Under the pieces are notes generated by a model. That model was given only the letters and a program-made list of their open reading frames with translations. It was not told where the DNA came from and did no database searches. This document shows, in pieces, positions 14,476 through 39,853 of a stretch of DNA of 42,084 bases. Every line of letters starts with the position of its first letter. The first letter of the stretch is position 1. A program made the position numbers and the translations under genes. The DNA is from an uncultured Bacteroidales bacterium (GTDB lineage Bacteria > Bacteroidota > Bacteroidia > Bacteroidales > P3). Location of the stretch: NCBI GenBank assembly GCA_946406015.1, contig CAMJJD010000012.1:1-42084 (forward strand), read 5' to 3'.

Positions 14476-14483
14476 TATTCAAT

Positions 14484-14657
14484 TTAGGAGTTAAGGAGAC
14501 AGGAGTTAAGGAGATAAGACAAATGTGTGAACGCTTGATTGTTTGAATGAGTTAGTGTTTTAGGAGTTAAGGAGACAGGAGTTAAGGAGATAAGACAAAT
14601 GTGTGAACGTTTGATTGTTTGAATGTGATAGTATTTTAGGAGTTAAGGAGATACGGA
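14484..14657. repeat. 76-bp tandem repeat, two full copies and a partial third
   Basis: Copies begin at 14484, 14560 and 14636, an exact 76-bp period. Each opens with TTAGGAGTTAAGGAGACAGG and contains GGAGATAAGACAAATGTGTG and GATTGTTTGAATG. The two full copies differ at only a few positions. The array fills the lptB/kdsD spacer. The opening words also occur at about 13579-13613 and, on the opposite strand, inside the permease gene at 25243-25281. Confidence 0.9.
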
Positions 14658-30664: not shown

Positions 30665-32577
30665 TAATCGAAAGCCTCCCTGATGTGGCGCGGGATGCGG
30701 GGCACCCAGTATATCAGGATGAGGACCGCGCCGACGAAGGCCAGGAACGATATCAGGTTGCGGGCCCAGCGCTGCAGGCGGAACTCGTTCCACTGCTGGA
30801 AGCGTGGGTAGAGGAAGTAGCCGTTCTTGCGGGTGGAAGGAGTAATCTTATATATCGTGTAGCGCACCGTAGGCCAGAAGCCGCGCTTGCCGTTGGCCAG
30901 CGTGTCGGCCAGGATGGCCTCGATGTCAGCCTGCTTGACGCCGCCATGGAGGTAGGCCACGCGCTCGGGGAAGTGCATCTTCAGGTCTTCGAGGGCATAG
31001 GTCTCCTTGCGCCCTTCGAGGGTGTAGGCGTAGTCAAAGGCGCTGGCGGCGCCGGTGGCCTGCACCGTGGGGCGTTTCTTCACCTGCTTGACCGACTTGA
31101 CCGTCACGGTGTCGCCCGAGGGCAGCAGCGTAGGATGCCCCACGGCGGTCTCCATCAGCGGTCCGTAGGCCAGGCTGCCGTCGCGCAGCTGCAGCAGATA
31201 TTGCTGGTTGGTCCAGTAGACGCGGGGCGAGTTGCCCTTGTCGAGTCTCTTCTTGTAGACACCCAGCACCGTGACCTTGGTGCCTACGGCGAGTTTCTTC
31301 TCCTTGCCGCCGTCGACGGGGCGCACGGTCTGCCCAGGGATGGTCACCTTCACCGTCTCGGCCCTTTCGAGGGCCTCCTGCTCGCTGATGGGCAGGAAAG
31401 TGAGACGGTCCATGTGCCACACGAGGCCGATGGCCGACACCGCCAGCACGAAGAGCAGCGTGCGTCCGACGAGGGGCCAGAGGTTGACGCGGCGGGTGAC
31501 GATGCGACGGGTGGTGGTGCGGGGACGGCGCACGCGGTAGTGGCGGGGTTTGATGCCCAGCTCGTCGAGCATATACCAGCGCACATCACCGTTCTTCCTG
31601 TAGCAATAGCGGGCAAAAAGGATGGCCCATTTGCGGGCCTCCTTGCGGTCGCGCGGCACCCCGATGCCGAAGCAATAGTGGTAGGCCAGCACACGCATTC
31701 CTTCCTCGTCGCCCGCCTCGGCGGCACGGCGGTACCAGTAGTGGGCCTGGGGCTTGTCGGGCGGCAGAGGCCTGTAGCTCCTGCCGCGGCCGAAGAACTC
31801 CGCCAGGTCGATCATGGCCCGCGTGTTGCCCGCCTCGGCGGCACGTATCCACCAGCGGACGGCCTCGTCGCGGTCGTCGCGCATGTTTTTAAAGCCATAC
31901 TCTGCGCCGCGTCCGTCCTCCCAGGCCTCGTAGACGCGGTTCCAGGCCGCCACGCCGTTCTGCTGCCAGTCGTGCGGGGTGCCGGGGGCGCTGTAGATGC
32001 GCTCCAGCTCGGCCAAAGCCTGCTGTGCATCTTCATGGCCCGCCGTCTTACGGTACCAACGCTTGGCCTCCTCGACGTCAGGGTCGACGCCGAGGCCGAA
32101 CTCCAGATTCTGGCCCCAGTTGAAATAGAATATATCGTTTACTACTTTATTGTCTTCCACCGCTTCGCGCAGCCAGCGGGACGACAGGCGGAAGTCGTTG
32201 ACAGGGCGGCGATATTTATAAAGGAGGCCGAGGAACGGCTTGGGACCCTTCTCGCCCAACTCGACGGCACGCAGATACATCTGGGCGGCCAGTTTGTAAT
32301 GCTCGCGTTCATCGGCAATGTGACCCAGGTCAGTCCAGGCATCGGAACGGCCATTGTCGGCGGCTCGGGCATACCAGTCGATGGCGGTGTCCACGTCCTT
32401 TTCCACCCCCTCGCCGTTATTGTAACAGTCGGCGAGATAAAACTGCGCGTCGGCATCGCCCATCTCGGCAGCGATGGTAAAGCATCGCACGGCCTCTTCA
32501 TAATCTTCGTCATAGTAGGCTTCCATACCAGTGGCATACCAATAGGTGGCATCCTTTGCGTTGTTGTCGTCGCTCAT
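30664..32577 (-). CDS. Sel1-repeat protein with two membrane spans
   Basis: A 637-residue protein from ATG 32577. The N-terminal half contains Sel1/TPR-like repeats, for example AVRCFTIAAEMGDADAQFYL, AIDWYARAADNGRSDAWTDL, AVRWWIRAAEAGNTRAMIDL and AHYWYRRAAEAGDEEGMRVL. A basic stretch (RRPRTTTRRIVTRR) precedes a membrane span (TLLFVLAVSAIGLVWH). A predicted periplasmic domain with SH3-like strands (LAVGTKVTVLGVYKKRLD) follows, and a second span near the C-terminus (LISFLAFVGAVLILIYW). It is probably a cytoplasmic scaffold tethered to the inner membrane; function unknown. A TTG start 39 nt upstream overlaps the promoter and was rejected. Confidence 0.85.
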   Translation of the reverse strand: MSDDNNAKDATYWYATGMEAYYDEDYEEAVRCFTIAAEMGDADAQFYLADCYNNGEGVEKDVDTAIDWYARAADNGRSDAWTDLGHIADEREHYKLAAQMYLRAVELGEKGPKPFLGLLYKYRRPVNDFRLSSRWLREAVEDNKVVNDIFYFNWGQNLEFGLGVDPDVEEAKRWYRKTAGHEDAQQALAELERIYSAPGTPHDWQQNGVAAWNRVYEAWEDGRGAEYGFKNMRDDRDEAVRWWIRAAEAGNTRAMIDLAEFFGRGRSYRPLPPDKPQAHYWYRRAAEAGDEEGMRVLAYHYCFGIGVPRDRKEARKWAILFARYCYRKNGDVRWYMLDELGIKPRHYRVRRPRTTTRRIVTRRVNLWPLVGRTLLFVLAVSAIGLVWHMDRLTFLPISEQEALERAETVKVTIPGQTVRPVDGGKEKKLAVGTKVTVLGVYKKRLDKGNSPRVYWTNQQYLLQLRDGSLAYGPLMETAVGHPTLLPSGDTVTVKSVKQVKKRPTVQATGAASAFDYAYTLEGRKETYALEDLKMHFPERVAYLHGGVKQADIEAILADTLANGKRGFWPTVRYTIYKITPSTRKNGYFLYPRFQQWNEFRLQRWARNLISFLAFVGAVLILIYWVPRIPRHIREAFD

Positions 32578-32613
32578 GTGTAAAGGGGTGTTTGGGTTAT
32601 CGTTTTCAGGGTG

Positions 32614-32644
32614 CAAAGATAGTGATTATTTCCGATATGGCAAA
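32614..32644 (-). promoter_or_regulatory. Promoter for the Sel1-repeat gene (divergent)
   Basis: Minus strand: TTTG (32641-32644), 19-nt spacer, TATCTTTG (32614-32621), a consensus match. It starts just 6 nt from the oppositely oriented promoter at 32650-32681, so the two -33 elements are nearly back to back and could interfere or share a regulator. Confidence 0.8.
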
Positions 32645-32649
32645 AATAA

Positions 32650-32681
32650 TTTGGCCGGACGGGGAAAAGTTCGTACTTTTG
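32650..32681 (+). promoter_or_regulatory. Promoter for the kinase-like gene
   Basis: TTTG (32650-32653), 20-nt spacer, TACTTTTG (32674-32681). The 14-nt string TTCGTACTTTTGCA covering the -7 element is identical to that in the two 71-bp modules downstream, suggesting common descent of the three promoters of this accessory block. Confidence 0.8.
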
Positions 32682-32712
32682 CAGCGTGAAATAGAAACAA
32701 GAAAAAAAAGCA

Positions 32713-33492
32713 ATGTGCAGTATCCAGAACATATACAAGGCTATTGCCGTCGAGGGATTCTCCGAATCCACATTGCATATGATTGATACGTTGTCAAATG
32801 ATATACAAAATGGACACACAAACTTTCCTCGCTACACTATACCAGAGCATGCAGGACTCTGCACGGCTGGTACGACTCTCATTGGGGCGTCCATCGTCGC
32901 ATGCTACGCGGCAACAAGCCTTGGAGCAGGTAGCCATGCTCCAGCAGGCCAAGGAAGCCCGTCAATCGTCACAAACCGACAAGTAGACGCCCTGCAAGAG
33001 CAACTTATTGAGCAGTGGGCCAAAGCCGCGCGCCTTTGGGTCGAAGACTCCGAACGAATACTGACAGAACATTTTGGCCCCAAGATAGCCCAGGGAGCCG
33101 AAGCGAAAGTCTACTACAAAGAGGGAGATACCTCGGTTGTTAAGGAAAGGGCCTCAATTTATTCTACCACACAGAAGGCTCTGGACGCCATAGCTCTGCA
33201 CAATTACTTGTTTCCAGAGACGGCAATGCATGTGATAGGTTATACACGTGATTCCGACGGTTTGTTGAGGATTATTCTCACCCAACCCTATGTACGTTGT
33301 TTACGCTTGGCGACGAAAGAAGAGATTGATATGCTGGCGGCTTCAAAAGGTTTTCGTGACAATTGGCAGGGGGAGGGTGTAAACTATATCTCGGAACGCA
33401 TGGCATTAGAAGATATGCATCCTGCCAATGTCTTCATTGACGAGACGAGCGAGAAGGCCACCTGTATCGATTGTATCGTGAAGTTTGTATAA
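32713..33492 (+). CDS. Kinase-like protein, possibly of the polyvalent-protein kinase group
   Basis: A 259-residue protein. The C-terminal part resembles a degenerate protein-kinase fold: a glycine-rich segment IAQGAEAKVYYKEGDTSVVK (about 125-144) containing a putative ATP-binding lysine, a middle ALDAIALHNYLFPET, and a catalytic-loop-like LEDMHPANVFIDE (about 234-246) followed by CIDCIVKF, where the aspartates could match the HxD..N and DFG positions. Such domains occur in phage or mobile-element polyvalent proteins and in Bacteroidales accessory loci. The N-terminal ~95 residues are uncertain, because a second, more helix-like frame (32810-32986) overlaps them (see findings). Base composition is more A/T-rich than in the flanking core genes. 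Confidence 0.7.
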   Translation: MCSIQNIYKAIAVEGFSESTLHMIDTLSNDIQNGHTNFPRYTIPEHAGLCTAGTTLIGASIVACYAATSLGAGSHAPAGQGSPSIVTNRQVDALQEQLIEQWAKAARLWVEDSERILTEHFGPKIAQGAEAKVYYKEGDTSVVKERASIYSTTQKALDAIALHNYLFPETAMHVIGYTRDSDGLLRIILTQPYVRCLRLATKEEIDMLAASKGFRDNWQGEGVNYISERMALEDMHPANVFIDETSEKATCIDCIVKFV

Positions 33493-33536
33493 TTTTAAAG
33501 ATTGTAGACAACAACATATTGTTCGATTATAACCTT

Positions 33537-33607
33537 TTGCCGCCGCGTGGAAACCACGCGGCGGCAACTTTTATTTGGTCAGTTCGAATAATATTCGTAC
33601 TTTTGCA
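33537..33607 (+). repeat. 71-bp terminator-promoter module, copy 1
   Basis: The first part is a terminator: 14-bp stem TTGCCGCCGCGTGG, AAA loop, CCACGCGGCGGCAA, then CTTTTATTT. The second part is a promoter: TTTG (33574-33577), 20-nt spacer, TACTTTTG (33598-33605). It ends the kinase-like gene and starts the toxin-antitoxin-like pair, whose ATG is at 33629. Copy 2 at 34156-34226 differs at one base. Confidence 0.92.
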
Positions 33608-33628
33608 AATTGAAACAATACAACCACC

Positions 33629-33820
33629 ATGGTACGCGAATATACAGACAAAGATCCCGAAACTCCAAAGGTCAGCGAGCCCGCAACCGAGTATGGAACG
33701 GTAGCAAAGGAACATCTGCGCATCGTTTCAGACGAGGAATTGGCTACGTATATGCCTCTTGAAGAATCGAGACGCCTTATCACGGAAAAGATTTATAGGG
33801 TTTATCATCCAGAGGCATGA
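33629..33820 (+). CDS. Putative antitoxin of a small two-gene operon
   Basis: A 63-residue acidic, probably flexible protein (MVREYTDKDPETPKVSEPAT start; helical end PLEESRRLITEKIYRVYHPE). It precedes and overlaps by 4 nt a gene whose product looks like a RelE/ParE-fold toxin, the usual order and coupling of type II antitoxins. No DNA-binding motif is evident, so autoregulation is uncertain. The function rests on context. Confidence 0.6.
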   Translation: MVREYTDKDPETPKVSEPATEYGTVAKEHLRIVSDEELATYMPLEESRRLITEKIYRVYHPEA

Positions 33821-34131
33821 AACTGGTAGTTTCCCATAAGGTACATCAGGCCATCGACAATTTCTACGATGCTGCCATTCTCCGTCATTGGCACACACTG
33901 AGCTATGAGACCGTGGAACAAAAGAAGGATAGGTTGTATGATGGGTTAGAGTCATTGACGGATTATGCTGCTATTTTCCCAAAAGCAAGACTTAAACATG
34001 AATGGATAAAAGCAGGTTGGCACGAGTTCATTTGCGAAGATTTCCATTTTGCATATGAACGTACATTTGATAGTCAAGGAGAAGATTTGATTATTGTTCA
34101 CGACGCCATCCATAGCCTGCTGTACCATTAA
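33817..34131 (+). CDS. Putative RelE/ParE-superfamily toxin
   Basis: A 104-residue protein. Its order of elements fits the ParE/RelE fold: a first strand (MKLVVSHKVHQAI), two helices (AIDNFYDAAILRHWH; TVEQKKDRLYDGLESLTD), then strands WIKAGWHEFICEDFHFAYE and EDLIIVHDAIHSLLYH. The final HDAIHSLLYH has histidines and a tyrosine of the sort used by RNase-type members, but no experimentally known active site could be matched. It is coupled to the preceding small acidic gene and bracketed by the two 71-bp modules. Could also be a harmless member of the fold. Confidence 0.65.
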   Translation: MKLVVSHKVHQAIDNFYDAAILRHWHTLSYETVEQKKDRLYDGLESLTDYAAIFPKARLKHEWIKAGWHEFICEDFHFAYERTFDSQGEDLIIVHDAIHSLLYH

Positions 34132-34155
34132 GCCGAATAGCATTTACGCCCCCTC

Positions 34156-34226
34156 TTGCCGCCGCGTGGAAACCACGCGGCGGCAACTTTTATTTGGTCA
34201 GTTCGAATATTATTCGTACTTTTGCA
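34156..34226 (+). repeat. 71-bp terminator-promoter module, copy 2
   Basis: Same structure as copy 1, 619 bp downstream, with a single A/T difference in the spacer of the promoter. The terminator (34156 onward) closes the toxin-antitoxin-like operon. The promoter (TTTG 34193-34196, 20-nt spacer, TACTTTTG 34217-34224) fires into the structured region 34230-34467. Confidence 0.92.
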
Positions 34227-34229
34227 CTG

Positions 34230-34467
34230 TCGTTTCAGGTGAAATGGCAGACATATAAAAGAGACGTGTAACAGCGTTTATCTGCGGCGTAGAGAACTTC
34301 GCAACCTCACTAAGTCCCGCAATAACGCAATGTTCCTCGTCCATTGCTTGGTATATTATCATTTATACCATAATGCGTGGGCTTCGGCATTGCTTATTCT
34401 GGACTTAAGGCAATGCGAAGGCCTTCTACGCGGGATAAGCAAAGTAGCAGATTCCCGCGCTTTTTTT
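34230..34467 (+). ncRNA. Candidate structured RNA or attenuated leader
   Basis: The region begins at the expected start of the copy-2 promoter and ends at an intrinsic terminator (CGCGGGA 34429-34435, TCCCGCG 34453-34459, then seven T). It has no convincing ORF. Internal hairpins include GGTATA-N8-TATACC and a long stem in which GGCTTCGGCATTGC pairs with GCAATGCGAAGGCC (one bulge). The 43 nt to the next ATG contain another hairpin. This could be an independent ~240-nt small RNA or a leader that controls the giant gene downstream by attenuation. I did not match it to a known RNA family. Confidence 0.6.
34429..34467 (+). terminator. Intrinsic terminator before the BspA-like gene
   Basis: A perfect 7-bp GC-rich stem (CGCGGGA/TCCCGCG) with a 17-nt loop is followed by CTTTTTTT. 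It lies only 43 nt before the start codon at 34510, with no promoter between them that fits the consensus, which is why attenuation is suspected. Confidence 0.8.
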
Positions 34468-34468
34468 A

Positions 34469-34507
34469 TGTCTATTGAATGAGACAGAAACAAATAAACA
34501 ATAGACA
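34469..34507 (+). promoter_or_regulatory. Hairpin abutting the start codon of the BspA-like gene
   Basis: TGTCTATTG (34469-34477) and CAATAGACA (34499-34507) are perfectly complementary, and the ATG follows after two bases. In the mRNA this stem would sit right next to the initiation codon and could modulate translation. Confidence 0.5.
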
Positions 34508-34509
34508 AA

Positions 34510-37500
34510 ATGAAACATCGAGTATCCCTGATTGCACTCTTACTGATGCTTTCGTCCATACCTTTCCATGCCAGCGCATATGACTTCTCAGCGGTGGCGC
34601 CGAGTGGTCAGACATTGTATTACATTATTACAAGCAGCAATACGGTGGCTGTGACAAGTCAGACCACCTCTTATCCATACAACACAACAACAACACCTAC
34701 AGGCAGTCTTGTTGTTCCCGATAGTGTAACAAATGGTGGTAACACATACTCGGTAACATCCATCTCCAGCTATGCTTTCATTAGGTGCTTTGGCTTGACC
34801 TCCGTCACCATTGGCAACTCGGTGACCAGGATCGCCAGCTACGCCTTCCAGCATTGCTTCAGCCTGACCTCCATCACCATCCCTAACTCGGTGACCAGCA
34901 TCGACAACTACGCCTTCGCTTTCTGTAGCGGCCTAACCTCCGTCACCATTCCCAACTCGGTGACCAGCATAGGCCACTACGCCTTCTATAATTGCAGCCG
35001 CCTGACCTCTGTCACAATCCCTGACGGTGTCACAGAAATTGGCCAATATTCTTTCAGCGGCTGTAGCGGTCTGTCCGTCACCATCCCAAATTCGGTGACC
35101 AGCATAGGCGTAGATGCCTTTTATGAAGTAAAATATATTGAATATCACGGCAGTGCTACCGGTGCCCCCTGGGGGGCTCGCCTGATGAACCGCGTGACAG
35201 AAGGGGACTTTGCCTTTACCGATTCCACAAAGCGCAATCTGCTTGCCTACTTAGGTGCTGGTGGAGATGTCGTTATTCCTTCGTATGTCGATACAATTGG
35301 TGAACAGGCCTTTGGTTTCTGTAGCGACCTAACCTCCGTCACCATTCCAAATTCGGTGACCTGCATCAGCGGTTGGGCTTTCGGTCGGTGCTACAGTTTG
35401 GTTAACATAAACATTCCGAACAGTGTCTCTTATATTGGTGACCATGCGTTTTATAATTGCAGTTCATTGACTTCAATCAGCATTCCCGAAGGTGTAACGG
35501 AGCTCAATGGCACATTCGATGGGTGTGGGGCATTGAGCTCCGTCGTATTGCCTAATAGTATTACGATAATCGGCGACAGTACTTTCAATTACTGCAGTGG
35601 TTTGACGTCTATCACGCTTCCTGAAGGTGTCCAATCCATCGAACATTCTGCATTTCAATCATGTAGCAATCTGTCTTCAATCAGTTTGCCGAGTAGTTTA
35701 AAAAGTATAGGAGAGTGGGCTTTTTCCGGTTGTGGTTTGGAGTCAATAACTATCCCCGACAGTGTTTCTTTAATTAAAGATGGTGCCTTTAGTTCATGTC
35801 AAAAACTGGTCACTGTAACACTTCCGGAAAGTCTGGATTCAATTGGACCGGATGTGTTTCAAGGCTGCCGTAAGCTATCCTCGGTCAATATTCCCGTCAA
35901 AATAAGGACAATTGCAGGGAGGCTTTTTGTGGATTGTGATAGTTTGACAAATATTATTATTCCAGATAGCGTTAGATACATAGGGGAACTTGCTTTTTAT
36001 AGGAGTGGCTTGAGAACTGTCACCATCCCGAAAGGCGTTAAATACATAAGAGAAGGTGCTTTCGGGGAGTGTAGTAATCTTGACACCATGTTCCTGAAGC
36101 CAATAACCCCTCCTGTTTTCGTTGAGGGGTCATATTCACCGTGGCCCACTATACCTTATAATACGGTAAAAGTAATTTATAGTTGTGCATACGAGGCATA
36201 TAGTAATTCTATGTGGTCAAATTATCTTGCATCTTTCAGCGTTATTGATAACGAATATGTCCTTAATTGCATTCCGGAGAATGAAGTGTTTGGGGAAGCA
36301 GTCATAGAACAACAATACTGTGATTCGAACATCATGTCCGTAATACATGCTGTTCCCAACTATGGCTACCATTTTAGGCAGTGGAACGACGGTGACACCA
36401 ATAATCCTCGGGTCGTCACGCTGACGCAGGACACCACGATTTCCGCTATTTTTGCTAAAAACATCTACAATGTAGCTGTCAGTAGTGCCGACACTGTGCG
36501 TGGTGGTGTTACAGGTGGTACAACTGCAGAGTATCTTGATACCGTCAGCCTGACCGCTACATCCAACTATGGCTACCACTTCACACAGTGGAGCGATGGT
36601 ATCACTGACAATCCGAGGATGGTGCAGGTGACCCGCGACAGCATCTTCACAGCGCAGTTCGGCTACAACCAGTACGGCATCACATTGGCGGTCGACACCA
36701 CCATCCACGGCTGCGTGAACGGAGCGGGTAGTTACAACTACCTTTCGGAGCGCACCATCAGCGCCATGCCCAACTACGGCTACCATTTCACACAGTGGAG
36801 CGACGGTGACACCAACAACCCTCGTACCCTCACGCTGACGCAGGACACCATATTTACCGCACTGTTTGCCAAGAATACCTATAGCATCGCTGCGCTGTCG
36901 GCGGATACGGTGATGGGCACGGTGGCTGGCACAAGCACTTTGGAATACCTCGATACCGCCACCTTGACTGCCACCTCTAACTACGGCTACCACTTCACAC
37001 AGTGGAGCGATGGAAACACCGCTAACCCGCGCAGCGTGCAGGTAATCCGCGACAGCGTCATCACTGCACAATTCGACTACAACCAATATAGCATTTCGCT
37101 GACGGTCGATACCACCATTCACGGCAGTGTAAGCGGTGATGGAAGTTATAGCTACCTCTCGGAGCGTACCATCAGCGCCACCCCCAACTATGGCTACCAC
37201 TTCACGCAGTGGAATGATGGCGACACTAACAATCCCCGTACCCTCACGCTGACACAAGACACCGCATTTACGGCTTTATTTACCACAAACCAGTATTATG
37301 TCACAGCTATATGCAATGACACAGCGAGGGGCAGTGTTTGGGGGAGTGACAGTGTGGCCTATCTTGACACCATCACTTTGATAGCAGTGCCCAACTATGG
37401 CTACCACCTGAATTACTGGCGATACCTCAACGACAACGGTAGCCCTGTCACATTATACGGCATGGACACCATCCAACTGGAGGTCACACGCAATATGTCC

Positions 37501-39735
37501 GTGACGGCATACTTCACCTACAATCAGTACAGCATAGCGCTGGCTGTCGATACCGCCATACACGGCAGTGTGAGCGGCGCAGGTGACTACAACTACCTCT
37601 CGGCACGCACCATCGCAGCCACCCCCAACTACGGCTACCACTTCACGCAGTGGAACGATGGCGACTCTACCAATCCGCGAGTCATCACGCTGACACAAGA
37701 CACCACATTTACCGCCATGTTTGCAAAGAATCTGTACGATGTTGCAGCATTGAGTGCCGACACAATACGTGGTAGCGTTACAGGCAGCACTACGGCAGAG
37801 TATCTTGACACTATTACAATGACCGCAGCACCCAACTATGGCTATCACTTTACACAGTGGAACGACGGTGACACCAACAATCCGCGTACTTTCACGCTGA
37901 CACAGGACACCGTGTTTACTGCCCTGTTTGACAAGAACAGCTACGACATCACCCTGATGGTTGACACCGCCATTCACGGCAGCGTGACGGGAGCAGGTAC
38001 CTATGAATACCTTGACAACCGTTCCATCTGCGTCACAGCCAACTATGGTTACCACTTCACGCAGTGGAACGATGGCGACACTACCAATCCGCGAGTCATA
38101 ACGCTGACACAGGACACCATCTTTACTGCCTTGTTTGCCAAGAATCTGTACGATGTCGCAGTATTGAGTGCCGACTCAATACGTGGTAGCGTTACAGGCA
38201 GCACTACGGCAGTGTATCTTGACACTATTACAATGACTGCAGCACCCGACTACGGCTACCACTTCACACAGTGGAACGACGGTGACACCAACAATCCGCG
38301 TACTTTCACGCTGACACAGGACACCGTGTTTACTGCCCTGTTTGACAAGAACAGCTACGATATCGCCCTATCGGTAGACACTGTTATTCACGGCAGCGTG
38401 ACGGGGGCAGGCACGTACGAATACCTTGACAGCCGTACCCTTGCCGCCACACCCAACTATGGCTATCACTTCACGCAGTGGAACGATGGCGACACCAACA
38501 ATCCGCGTGTCATCACGCTGACACAGGACACCGCCTTCACTGCCCTGTTCGCCAAAAACAGCTATGTGCTGACCCTGCAGAGCAACGATACAACGCTGGG
38601 CGAGGTGCTCGGCGAAGGCTTGTACGAATATCTTGACACGGTGAGCATCACTGCCTCCACCCTGATGTCGCACCACCACTTCGTGCAGTGGAGCGACGGC
38701 AGCACAGAAGCGACGCGCAACGTGGTGGTCACGCAGGACTCGCTGATTACCGCCACGTTCGCCATCGACACGCACACAGTGACGCTGGCAGTAAACGATG
38801 ACCTGTACGGTACAGTGAGCGGCATAGGGGTGTATCCTTATGGTAGCGATGTGGTGATAGAGGCCACGGCAGCCGAAGGCTTCCACTTTGCCCAATGGAG
38901 CAACGGCAGCCGCAGCAACCCCGATACCATCACGGTACTTGGCGACACAACGTTGACAGCTATCTTCACCGACGACGTAGTACCGGAGATTTCCATGGTC
39001 ACCGTGCAAAATGGCCGCAACATGGTTATCTGGGAGAAAGGGCTGGAAGTGACGGCTTATAACATCTACCGAGAGGGTAACAGCTCGAATGAGTACGACT
39101 TAATTGCTACGGTGCCTTACGACGCGGAACCACAATGGATTGACACCGCTTCGCGGCCACGCAACCGTAGTTACCGCTACCGTATGACAGCCACCGACCT
39201 CTACGGCTACGAGTCGGAGCCCAGTTCAATACACAAAACCATGCACCTCACCATCAGTCAAGGTGTCGGCAACGAGTGGAACCTCGTTTGGACTCCCTAC
39301 GAAGGTGCAGAGTACAGCACATATGTCATCTACCGCGGCACCAACGCGAGCAATATTCAGCAAATCGACGTGATGCCCTCGAACGGCAACACTACCTACA
39401 CCGACGACAGCGCACCTGAGGGCACTGTTTACTATCAGGTTGGAATCATGCTTTCCAGTTCGGCGAAGAGAAGCGACATCATCCTTTCGAATATTGCCAC
39501 CAACAGCACTGTGGGCATCGAGGAAGTCGGAGGTCAGAGGTTGAAGGGCAGAGTGTATGCTGTCGAGGGTAAGATTGTGGTCGAGGGTGCCGAGGGTGAG
39601 ACGGTGAGGGTGTACGATGTGACGGGGCGCATGGTTCAGACATTCACTCACTCCAGCGACCAGACACTCCCCGCCGGCGTCTACATGGTCAAGGTCGGCC
39701 AGCATCCCGCCCGCAAAGTGGTGGTGTTACGGTAA
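34510..39735 (+). CDS. Giant BspA-like LRR / InlB-type repeat surface protein with T9SS sorting domain
   Basis: A 1741-residue secreted protein. It has a signal peptide (VSLIALLLMLSSIPFHASA), then BspA/TpLRR-type leucine-rich repeats to about residue 580 (LTSVTIPNSVTSIGHYAF and similar). From about 610 to 1495 there are thirteen ~69-residue divergent InlB B-type repeats, NYGYHFTQWNDGDTNNPR followed by TLTQDTTFTALF, alternating in two flavours so the DNA period is 414 bp. Fibronectin-like domains follow (about 1495-1670: NMVIWEKGLEVTAYNIYREG), and a C-terminal type A sorting domain (EGETVRVYDVTGRMVQTF, LPAGVYMVKVG). BspA-like proteins bind host proteins or other bacteria; the ligand here is unknown. 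Repeat units 7-8 and 9-10 are nearly identical in DNA, indicating recent duplication. Confidence 0.93.
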   Translation: MKHRVSLIALLLMLSSIPFHASAYDFSAVAPSGQTLYYIITSSNTVAVTSQTTSYPYNTTTTPTGSLVVPDSVTNGGNTYSVTSISSYAFIRCFGLTSVTIGNSVTRIASYAFQHCFSLTSITIPNSVTSIDNYAFAFCSGLTSVTIPNSVTSIGHYAFYNCSRLTSVTIPDGVTEIGQYSFSGCSGLSVTIPNSVTSIGVDAFYEVKYIEYHGSATGAPWGARLMNRVTEGDFAFTDSTKRNLLAYLGAGGDVVIPSYVDTIGEQAFGFCSDLTSVTIPNSVTCISGWAFGRCYSLVNINIPNSVSYIGDHAFYNCSSLTSISIPEGVTELNGTFDGCGALSSVVLPNSITIIGDSTFNYCSGLTSITLPEGVQSIEHSAFQSCSNLSSISLPSSLKSIGEWAFSGCGLESITIPDSVSLIKDGAFSSCQKLVTVTLPESLDSIGPDVFQGCRKLSSVNIPVKIRTIAGRLFVDCDSLTNIIIPDSVRYIGELAFYRSGLRTVTIPKGVKYIREGAFGECSNLDTMFLKPITPPVFVEGSYSPWPTIPYNTVKVIYSCAYEAYSNSMWSNYLASFSVIDNEYVLNCIPENEVFGEAVIEQQYCDSNIMSVIHAVPNYGYHFRQWNDGDTNNPRVVTLTQDTTISAIFAKNIYNVAVSSADTVRGGVTGGTTAEYLDTVSLTATSNYGYHFTQWSDGITDNPRMVQVTRDSIFTAQFGYNQYGITLAVDTTIHGCVNGAGSYNYLSERTISAMPNYGYHFTQWSDGDTNNPRTLTLTQDTIFTALFAKNTYSIAALSADTVMGTVAGTSTLEYLDTATLTATSNYGYHFTQWSDGNTANPRSVQVIRDSVITAQFDYNQYSISLTVDTTIHGSVSGDGSYSYLSERTISATPNYGYHFTQWNDGDTNNPRTLTLTQDTAFTALFTTNQYYVTAICNDTARGSVWGSDSVAYLDTITLIAVPNYGYHLNYWRYLNDNGSPVTLYGMDTIQLEVTRNMSVTAYFTYNQYSIALAVDTAIHGSVSGAGDYNYLSARTIAATPNYGYHFTQWNDGDSTNPRVITLTQDTTFTAMFAKNLYDVAALSADTIRGSVTGSTTAEYLDTITMTAAPNYGYHFTQWNDGDTNNPRTFTLTQDTVFTALFDKNSYDITLMVDTAIHGSVTGAGTYEYLDNRSICVTANYGYHFTQWNDGDTTNPRVITLTQDTIFTALFAKNLYDVAVLSADSIRGSVTGSTTAVYLDTITMTAAPDYGYHFTQWNDGDTNNPRTFTLTQDTVFTALFDKNSYDIALSVDTVIHGSVTGAGTYEYLDSRTLAATPNYGYHFTQWNDGDTNNPRVITLTQDTAFTALFAKNSYVLTLQSNDTTLGEVLGEGLYEYLDTVSITASTLMSHHHFVQWSDGSTEATRNVVVTQDSLITATFAIDTHTVTLAVNDDLYGTVSGIGVYPYGSDVVIEATAAEGFHFAQWSNGSRSNPDTITVLGDTTLTAIFTDDVVPEISMVTVQNGRNMVIWEKGLEVTAYNIYREGNSSNEYDLIATVPYDAEPQWIDTASRPRNRSYRYRMTATDLYGYESEPSSIHKTMHLTISQGVGNEWNLVWTPYEGAEYSTYVIYRGTNASNIQQIDVMPSNGNTTYTDDSAPEGTVYYQVGIMLSSSAKRSDIILSNIATNSTVGIEEVGGQRLKGRVYAVEGKIVVEGAEGETVRVYDVTGRMVQTFTHSSDQTLPAGVYMVKVGQHPARKVVVLR
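37322..38404 (+). repeat. Recently duplicated 414-bp unit inside the BspA-like gene
   Basis: The sequence from about 37726 recurs at exactly +414 (AAGAATCTGTACGAT ends at 37740 and 38154) with few mismatches. The unit encodes two ~69-residue InlB-type repeats. The interval marks the region where neighbouring units are most alike; the whole array spans roughly 36340-39000. Confidence 0.75.
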
Positions 39736-39753
39736 CACAGAGCATCAATTTAC

Positions 39754-39807
39754 ACCCTATCGGGTATAATTTACATATCCTGGACACATAACTATACCCG
39801 ATAGGGT
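39754..39807. repeat. 15-bp perfect inverted repeat
   Basis: ACCCTATCGGGTATA (39754-39768) and TATACCCGATAGGGT (39793-39807) flank a 24-nt centre. Each arm is itself partly palindromic (CCCTATCGGG / CCCGATAGGG). It lies between the BspA-like stop and the terminator before the next gene and could be a regulator site or RNA stem. Confidence 0.8.
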
Positions 39808-39810
39808 ACA

Positions 39811-39843
39811 AAACCGGCACACAATTTATGTGCCGGTTTTTCG
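39811..39843 (+). terminator. Intrinsic terminator abutting the next start codon
   Basis: AAACCGGCACA (39811-39821) pairs perfectly with TGTGCCGGTTT (39829-39839), followed by TTC. It would end the BspA-like transcript, yet the next gene's GTG start (39854) is only about 11 nt further on, leaving no room for a promoter in between. Confidence 0.85.
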
Positions 39844-39853
39844 TTATATAGGC

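Follow-up and report, generated by a model that had tools for sequence, protein, structure and literature searches.

Twin terminator-promoter junctions and a structured leader RNA in a modular accessory island of an uncultured Bacteroidales bacterium

The region at 32.68-39.84 kb of the window, the 42,084-nucleotide stretch of contig CAMJJD010000012.1 from an uncultured Bacteroidales bacterium analyzed here, is an accessory island in which units of promoter, gene and terminator follow one another: first a PolyVal kinase, then a toxin-antitoxin (TA)-like pair with a predicted ParE/RelE fold, and then a structured leader RNA followed by a BspA-type surface protein. Two 71-75-bp repeats form twin junctions, each coupling one unit's terminator directly to the promoter of the following unit. 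The explanation that best accounts for the whole, and that we consider probable, combines a modular island, twin junctions duplicated via promoter/leader recombination, and a leader acting as an attenuator. Sequence comparison places the leader before unrelated cargo with a sharp 3' boundary and reveals reciprocal empty sites and further TA twins. The modular units of the original prediction stand in outline, with the correction that the element shared among loci is the promoter plus leader, not the 71-bp repeat. That leader RNA, driven by the second repeat copy, had been overlooked; as a family it is the most novel part of the locus.

Twin terminator-promoter modules

All parts of the island lie on the forward strand. 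As originally described, two 71-bp direct repeats at 33537-33607 and 34156-34226, 619 bp apart, differ at one position only (A at 33591, T at 34210). Four further upstream bases, one of them mismatched, extend the repeat to 75 bp at 97% identity. Repeat comparison thereby delimits module copy 1 (33533-33607), predicted to drive the TA pair, and module copy 2 (34152-34226), which fuses the TA unit's terminator to the predicted leader RNA promoter.

Each 71-bp copy is indeed composed of a perfect 14-bp-stem terminator hairpin fused to a predicted consensus Bacteroidota promoter. In copy 1, the arms at 33537-33550 and 33554-33567 pair perfectly over 14 bp around a 3-nt loop, and the predicted promoter comprises a -33 TTTG (33574-33577) and a -7 element, TACTTTTG (33598-33605), separated by a 20-nt spacer. 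The hairpin of each copy runs straight into CTTTTATTTG, followed by TACTTTTG at -7, so that the terminator's T-rich stretch and the -33 element share bases. This promoter agrees with the published Bacteroides consensus of TTTG at -33 and TAnnTTTG at -7 (PMC7366714); transcription start sites at the window locus are predicted from sequence.

The 14-nt string TTCGTACTTTTGCA is common to the kinase promoter and the 71-bp unit, as had been noticed. It occurs 12 times in the assembly versus 0 times for a reversed control, and this part of the unit is therefore a common promoter element. The promoter half is a genus-wide property, similar strings being present 5' of many genes in relatives, and the hairpin half is found within the assembly at these two places only (E<=0.001). 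Against 98 relatives, the matches listed for the 75-bp unit are confined to the promoter half except in G010 and G036, where weak matches (71-72% identity) span its full length.

The single mismatch occupies the exact center of CGAATA[A/T]TATTCG (33585-33597 and 34204-34216), making the copies mutual reverse complements at this element. By eye, the genus promoter itself is nearly palindromic at the same position, and a role of the palindrome as a TA operator was set aside on that ground. Elsewhere in the window, a 76-bp tandem repeat spans 14483-14634 with 95% identity between copies.

The bracketed gene pair

The modules bracket, as predicted, two small bicistronic genes overlapping by 4 nt: a 63-aa antitoxin-like ORF (33629-33820) without known family and a 104-aa toxin-like protein (33817-34131) with a predicted ParE/RelE fold. 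Neither protein has a Pfam or PADLOC match or an NCBIfam match near the cut-off; the best NCBIfam match of the 63-aa protein reaches 12.3 bits against a cut-off of 70, and these three resources reveal no recognized family or DNA-binding domain in it. A sequence-profile search with the 104-aa protein returned no relevant match, and its 98 homologues carry no informative name and no precomputed Pfam domain. Because family and sequence-profile searches gave nothing, a fold search was applied. The AlphaFold2 model, with a pLDDT of 95, was compared with the PDB by Foldseek; the top 18 matches are all toxin-antitoxin entries, mostly ParDE/RelBE, with five of the 18 at E<=0.001, a best E of 6.4e-4, and query TM values of ~0.4-0.7. 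Since the predicted structure resembles ParE/RelE-type toxins, the two genes are likely a toxin-antitoxin pair. With type II systems of the ParDE/RelBE superfamily the pair shares two overlapping small genes and a second product of predicted ParE/RelE fold, but it differs from them in having no Pfam/PADLOC match and an antitoxin without a recognized DNA-binding domain.

Sixteen homologous TA loci with relatives of the 104-aa toxin (L040-L055) are set among other sequences, and blastn of the 75-bp unit against them yields no match reaching the promoter end at E<=0.01. Inheritance of the pair and its flanks as one block, named at the outset as the alternative to cassette modularity, fails on this comparison, the module being present at 0/16 loci. 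Two of the homologues (L047 and L054) carry an internal stop codon.

Neighboring units, island ends and empty sites

The predicted promoter of the PolyVal-kinase unit (32650-32683) aligns with the promoter preceding the OmpA-like gene at an empty site in a relative, G012, which places the left end of the island at or just after this promoter. The kinase ORF, called from 32713, contains a Kinase-PolyVal domain (PF18762) at 32995-33492 (residues 95-257, E 3.7e-31). The ORF list also includes a 67-aa ORF before the domain (32783-32986), with no Pfam/PADLOC match, possibly the partner of the kinase. Behind the leader lies its cargo, a 1741-aa BspA-type LRR protein with LRR_5 and Flg_new_2 domains (34510-39735).

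The right end lies at 39754-39840, where two hairpins precede the OmpA-like gene, one with arms at 39754-39767 and 39794-39807 and the other at 39810-39840. G049 (C25:1348-1460) matches 39740-39852 at 98% identity, against 78% identity of the adjoining OmpA-like protein, a difference that suggests exchange of the block. Inverted repeats resembling the right-end hairpins, of the ACCC..GGGTAT type, are present in G041 and G010.

The original prediction overlooked that the whole 7.2-kb block is absent from G012. There, the Sel1-repeat (86%) and OmpA-like (91% protein identity) genes are adjacent, with 137 bp separating the aligned parts of the two flanks. Reciprocally, G012 carries a TA-leader-lipoprotein island between DoxX-like and PepD-like genes, and in the window's genome these two genes are neighbors, the aligned blocks being 75 nt apart. 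Among the other relatives fetched, no leader was found at either empty site, and the ackA-OmpA interval is variable, with adjacency in three. Neither an excision product, circle or strain-level deletion at these loci nor a single-copy deletion product of the window TA pair was seen, which leaves the proposed role of the 71-bp unit as a mobile boundary, with excision between its copies, unsupported. A search of the assembly (80.6% complete) for Phage_integrase (PF00589) gave one match, on contig C92, and none in the window.

A structured leader RNA family

Module copy 2 leads into a structured leader RNA of ~240 nt (34226-34467), recognized by its fold (z -7.9), a covariance model score of 204 bits, and covariation. 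Its 3' end is predicted to form an intrinsic-terminator-like hairpin, GCGGGA...TCCCGC, followed by T7. Across 96 aligned sequences, changes on both sides occur at 12 of 34 pairs, eight of which show them in 35 to 55 of the sequences. Rfam release 15 provides no leader match above the gathering score in the window or in 16 loci, and at E<=1 over 32500-34600 it returns nothing, 6S, 6S-flavo and Bacteroidales-1 included.

DNA search detects leader relatives in 81 of 120 genus genomes, the window's own among them. The covariance model was run on 40 genus genomes, all of 90% completeness or more except the window's own; 34 match at E<=0.001 and 29 exceed 100 bits, with up to six matches of this strength per genome. 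At the level of the order, 294 genomes from 180 genera were compared, and matches at E<=0.001 occur in 52 genomes and 36 genera; 36 of the 52 genomes reach at least 60 bits and 12 exceed 100 bits. A pattern scan recovered at least 118 stretches, and 80 titles from it are metagenome-assembled or uncultured genomes named Bacteroidales, Bacteroidetes or Bacteroidia, with one Candidatus Sodaliphilus, many of them from rumen or other herbivore gut samples. The 23-nt core pattern of the leader has no match in viral_contigs, and neither plasmids nor phages gave a blastn match to the leader; carriage by phage or plasmid was rejected on these results. Neither the leader nor the twin-module arrangement was found in the literature searched, a body of text that contains no preprints and few subscription papers.

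Leader cargo and a putative attenuator

At the loci from the pattern scan, the first downstream gene of at least 80 aa lies on the leader strand at 96 of 108, four more loci having no such gene, and for 82 of the 84 nearby genes no TAnnTTTG separates the terminator-like leader end from the start codon. For cargo assignment, downstream genes were truncated at 330 aa and limited to the 84 starting within 150 nt of the leader, and the scans of alignments give counts per family, not per protein. LRR_5 accounts for 18/84 and secretion-tail proteins for 5/84; DarT, PAPS-reductase/DndC, PLD-like, caspase, kinase, ion channel and other families appear in one or two cases each. Among control genes of the same contigs (84 of 92 scanned), LRR_5 falls outside the 25 commonest families, a list that reaches single cases.

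Between the leader terminator and the start codon of the window cargo, TGTCTATTG (34469-34477) pairs with CAATAGACA (34499-34507) in a hairpin spanning 34469-34507. Hairpins ending at the start codon are present in 35 of 128 leaders, mostly of BspA type, versus a control mean of 13.4 and maximum of 21. A downstream segment pairs with the terminator 3' arm over at least six pairs in 62 of 124 leaders, and pairing across the T-run with non-consensus arms occurs in 13 of 57 versus a shuffled mean of 4.2 and maximum of 10 (500 shuffles). We infer that the leader may act as a transcription attenuator, in which case the cargo mRNA would arise when transcription continues beyond the leader terminator. 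The model is incomplete because the partner, of the GGGAATC type, is transcribed only after the terminator and cannot act earlier. At some non-BspA loci (L123, L079 and L059 among them), a recurrent segment like GTTGCGCCCGACACGNATTAGGGC lies between leader and start codon.

Bacteroid-trp and Bacteroidales-1, listed in PMC2864571, are examples of cis-regulatory attenuator/riboswitch leaders. Like them, the window leader is conserved and structured, lies 5' of its gene and carries a terminator-like hairpin, but it has no Rfam match, and its cargo is unrelated accessory, surface and defense-like genes, not one pathway. That the 240-nt RNA is instead a free, 6S-like small RNA that happens to be positioned upstream of genes is unlikely: its own predicted promoter, terminator-like 3' end and long hairpin fold would suit such an RNA, whereas the same-strand downstream genes (96/108), the gaps without a -7 motif (82/84), the several copies per genome and the absence of an Rfam match, 6S and 6S-flavo included, speak against it, gene orientation and copy number having led us to disfavor it.

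Homology around leaders

A set of 90 distinct leaders yields 387 pairs whose leaders align at 82% identity or more. Where enough downstream sequence was available for comparison (349 pairs), similarity breaks off no further than 30 nt from the leader end in 321 and continues for more than 100 nt past the leader in 10, the pairs and genomes being non-independent and the sequences largely metagenome-assembled. L067 (G106) and L139 (which has the same leader as L071 in G116) share a homologous block (~-840 to +274) that begins at the TA promoter and closes with the leader terminator; the cargo behind it differs. Similar blocks appear to occur at L107, L080 and L200 with the toxin or HEPN gene partly or wholly missing. 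L107 and L080 share a 58-aa antitoxin-like gene next to the twin promoter and leader but lack all or part of its toxin, and may be remnants of a decaying TA system.

Of the small genes lying up to 1.2 kb upstream of a leader, 13 to 16 of 64 carry TA-type domains, versus 2 of 59 distant small genes (64 of 65 upstream and 59 of 77 distant genes scanned), a range being given because one protein may match two families. Taking 14/64, the enrichment has a Fisher p of 0.003, calculated over loci that are not independent. Perfect stems of at least 7 bp lie just upstream of the leader promoter at 11 of 87 loci, compared with 0.24 expected from shuffles.

Twin modules at other loci

At a threshold of at least 42 bp and 80% identity, applied to loci with enough upstream sequence, a second copy of the leader's own upstream module is present at 9 of 82 leader loci versus 0 of 71 downstream controls; 73 of the 82 have no twin at this threshold. 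All six twins with a spacing of at least 600 bp bracket TA-type genes: MNT-HEPN at L019 and L064, the window pair (L056) and, labeled by eye, a ParE-like pair at L076, a PIN-like pair with a RhuM-like gene at L129, and an MNT gene plus several others at L107. The L064 twin is weak, with 81% identity over 47 bp. Three of the nine are short-spaced or tandem and contain no TA gene, comprising a 140-bp tandem repeat at L059 and L145, with an additional copy at 323 bp in L059, and a spacing of 426 bp at L161. The closest parallel to the window, L019/L272 in G012 (judged by sequence and length to be on record JAFURZ010000007.1), has modules 97% identical over 79 bp, placed 783 bp apart around MNT-HEPN and followed by the leader, with a hairpin sequence different from that of the window module. 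Restriction of the unit to this locus is true of the 75-bp sequence itself and untrue of the architecture, which recurs with other sequences; near-identical modules bracketing different TA pairs in other genomes, and empty sites, both exist and support this part of the original prediction. The architecture is present in two separate assemblies, metagenome assembly being a general caveat.

Upstream-copy promoters are 0.76-1.00 identical to their own leader promoter, versus medians of 0.51-0.60 to the promoters of other leaders, with one or two other leaders' promoters matching the upstream copy equally well or better at L064 and L076. The 34 other promoters located 0.2-3 kb upstream of leaders have a median identity of 0.53 to the leader promoter, and the best of them (L121, 0.91; L080, 0.84) lie, by eye, beside TA-like genes. 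At L076, L107 and L129, the promoter core is alike between copies and the hairpin parts have diverged. The upstream copy at L019 retains the first leader bases, ACCGTCG, and those at L200 and L102 retain ~40-45 nt of leader. In the window, the direction of duplication is not visible because the upstream copy carries no leader nucleotides.

Origin of the twin modules

A TA unit placed upstream of the leader would duplicate the leader's own terminator-promoter and so generate twin modules, in some cases together with the initial 8-45 nt of leader sequence. The simplest mechanism, which we favor over a site-specific integrase with moderate confidence, would be recombination between promoter/leader repeats. 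The TA pair may in turn help retention of the island.

Two competing accounts each have a modest chance of being correct. Gene conversion or selection for equal strength could keep two neighboring promoters alike with no cassette movement at the repeats, as would fit a promoter half near the genus consensus, the 12 exact 14-mers, the similar strings at many genes of relatives, and the three loci (L076, L107 and L129) where hairpins have diverged around a similar promoter core. Against such upkeep, the hairpin is duplicated too in the window and in G012, with a sequence that differs between these loci, the six twins spaced at 600 bp or more surround TA-type genes, and the 34 other upstream promoters have a median identity of 0.53 to the leader promoter. 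Alternatively, the island could have been inherited, or transferred by homologous recombination of its flanking genes, the repeats being a historical tandem duplication without a role. The variable ackA-OmpA interval agrees with this possibility, and the right end, at 98% identity to G049 beside an OmpA-like protein at 78%, is as expected of an exchanged block; twin modules of other sequence at other TA pairs and a shared leader before different cargo are left unexplained by it.

Superintegrons have hairpin boundaries and small-gene cassettes, including TA pairs. The window island resembles integron and superintegron cassettes as an array of small units with a TA pair, border hairpins and empty sites, and its hairpins could on that likeness be taken for attC-like sites of an integron integrase. 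We consider this reading very improbable. The sole Phage_integrase-family match is the one on contig C92 of the 80.6%-complete assembly, outside the window, every unit has its own predicted promoter, and the shared element is a leader RNA. Stems of attC sites are bulged and imperfect; in the module hairpin all 14 bp pair, and a T-rich tract comes next. An integron array was disfavored because the PF00589 search found no tyrosine recombinase in the window and the module stems are perfect. TA-stabilized genomic islands, exemplified by HipAB in a composite island (PMC8978831), likewise have TA genes adjoining cargo in a variable island; the window island differs from them in that no integrase was found and in having twin terminator-promoter modules and a leader RNA.

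Under the preferred explanation, promoter/leader recombination in a modular island, rumen Bacteroidales islands that pair a TA set with a surface or defense gene can use a near-identical promoter twice. If it is true, one RNA leader controls rotating surface, defense and addiction genes in a widespread uncultured gut group, providing a directly testable regulatory switch and a gene-swapping route that preserves control. There are hints that these twin-promoter islands constitute a gene-cassette platform without an obvious integrase. More speculative, and on balance doubtful, is an undescribed Bacteroidales platform in which promoter and attenuator-like leader form a common, repeatedly used docking module: recombination between promoter/leader repeats, without a dedicated integrase, would swap unrelated cargo (surface LRR proteins, defense and lipoprotein genes) behind it and add TA pairs in front. 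A single signal acting on RNA would in that case govern all accessory genes of this kind within a genome. The leader family is a candidate addition to RNA databases and a probe for accessory islands in metagenomes.

Shorter leader variants

The other covariance-model matches in the genus are mostly weak variants of 160-175 nt, and the window's genome contains one full leader match and one weak match, on contig C8. Shorter weak variants of ~160-175 nt and 20-36 bits include L224 (G000:C8:49226-49391), L225 and L226, and one to three such variants per genome are present in many genomes. By eye, the next ORF at L224 and L226 is nuclease- or restriction-like.
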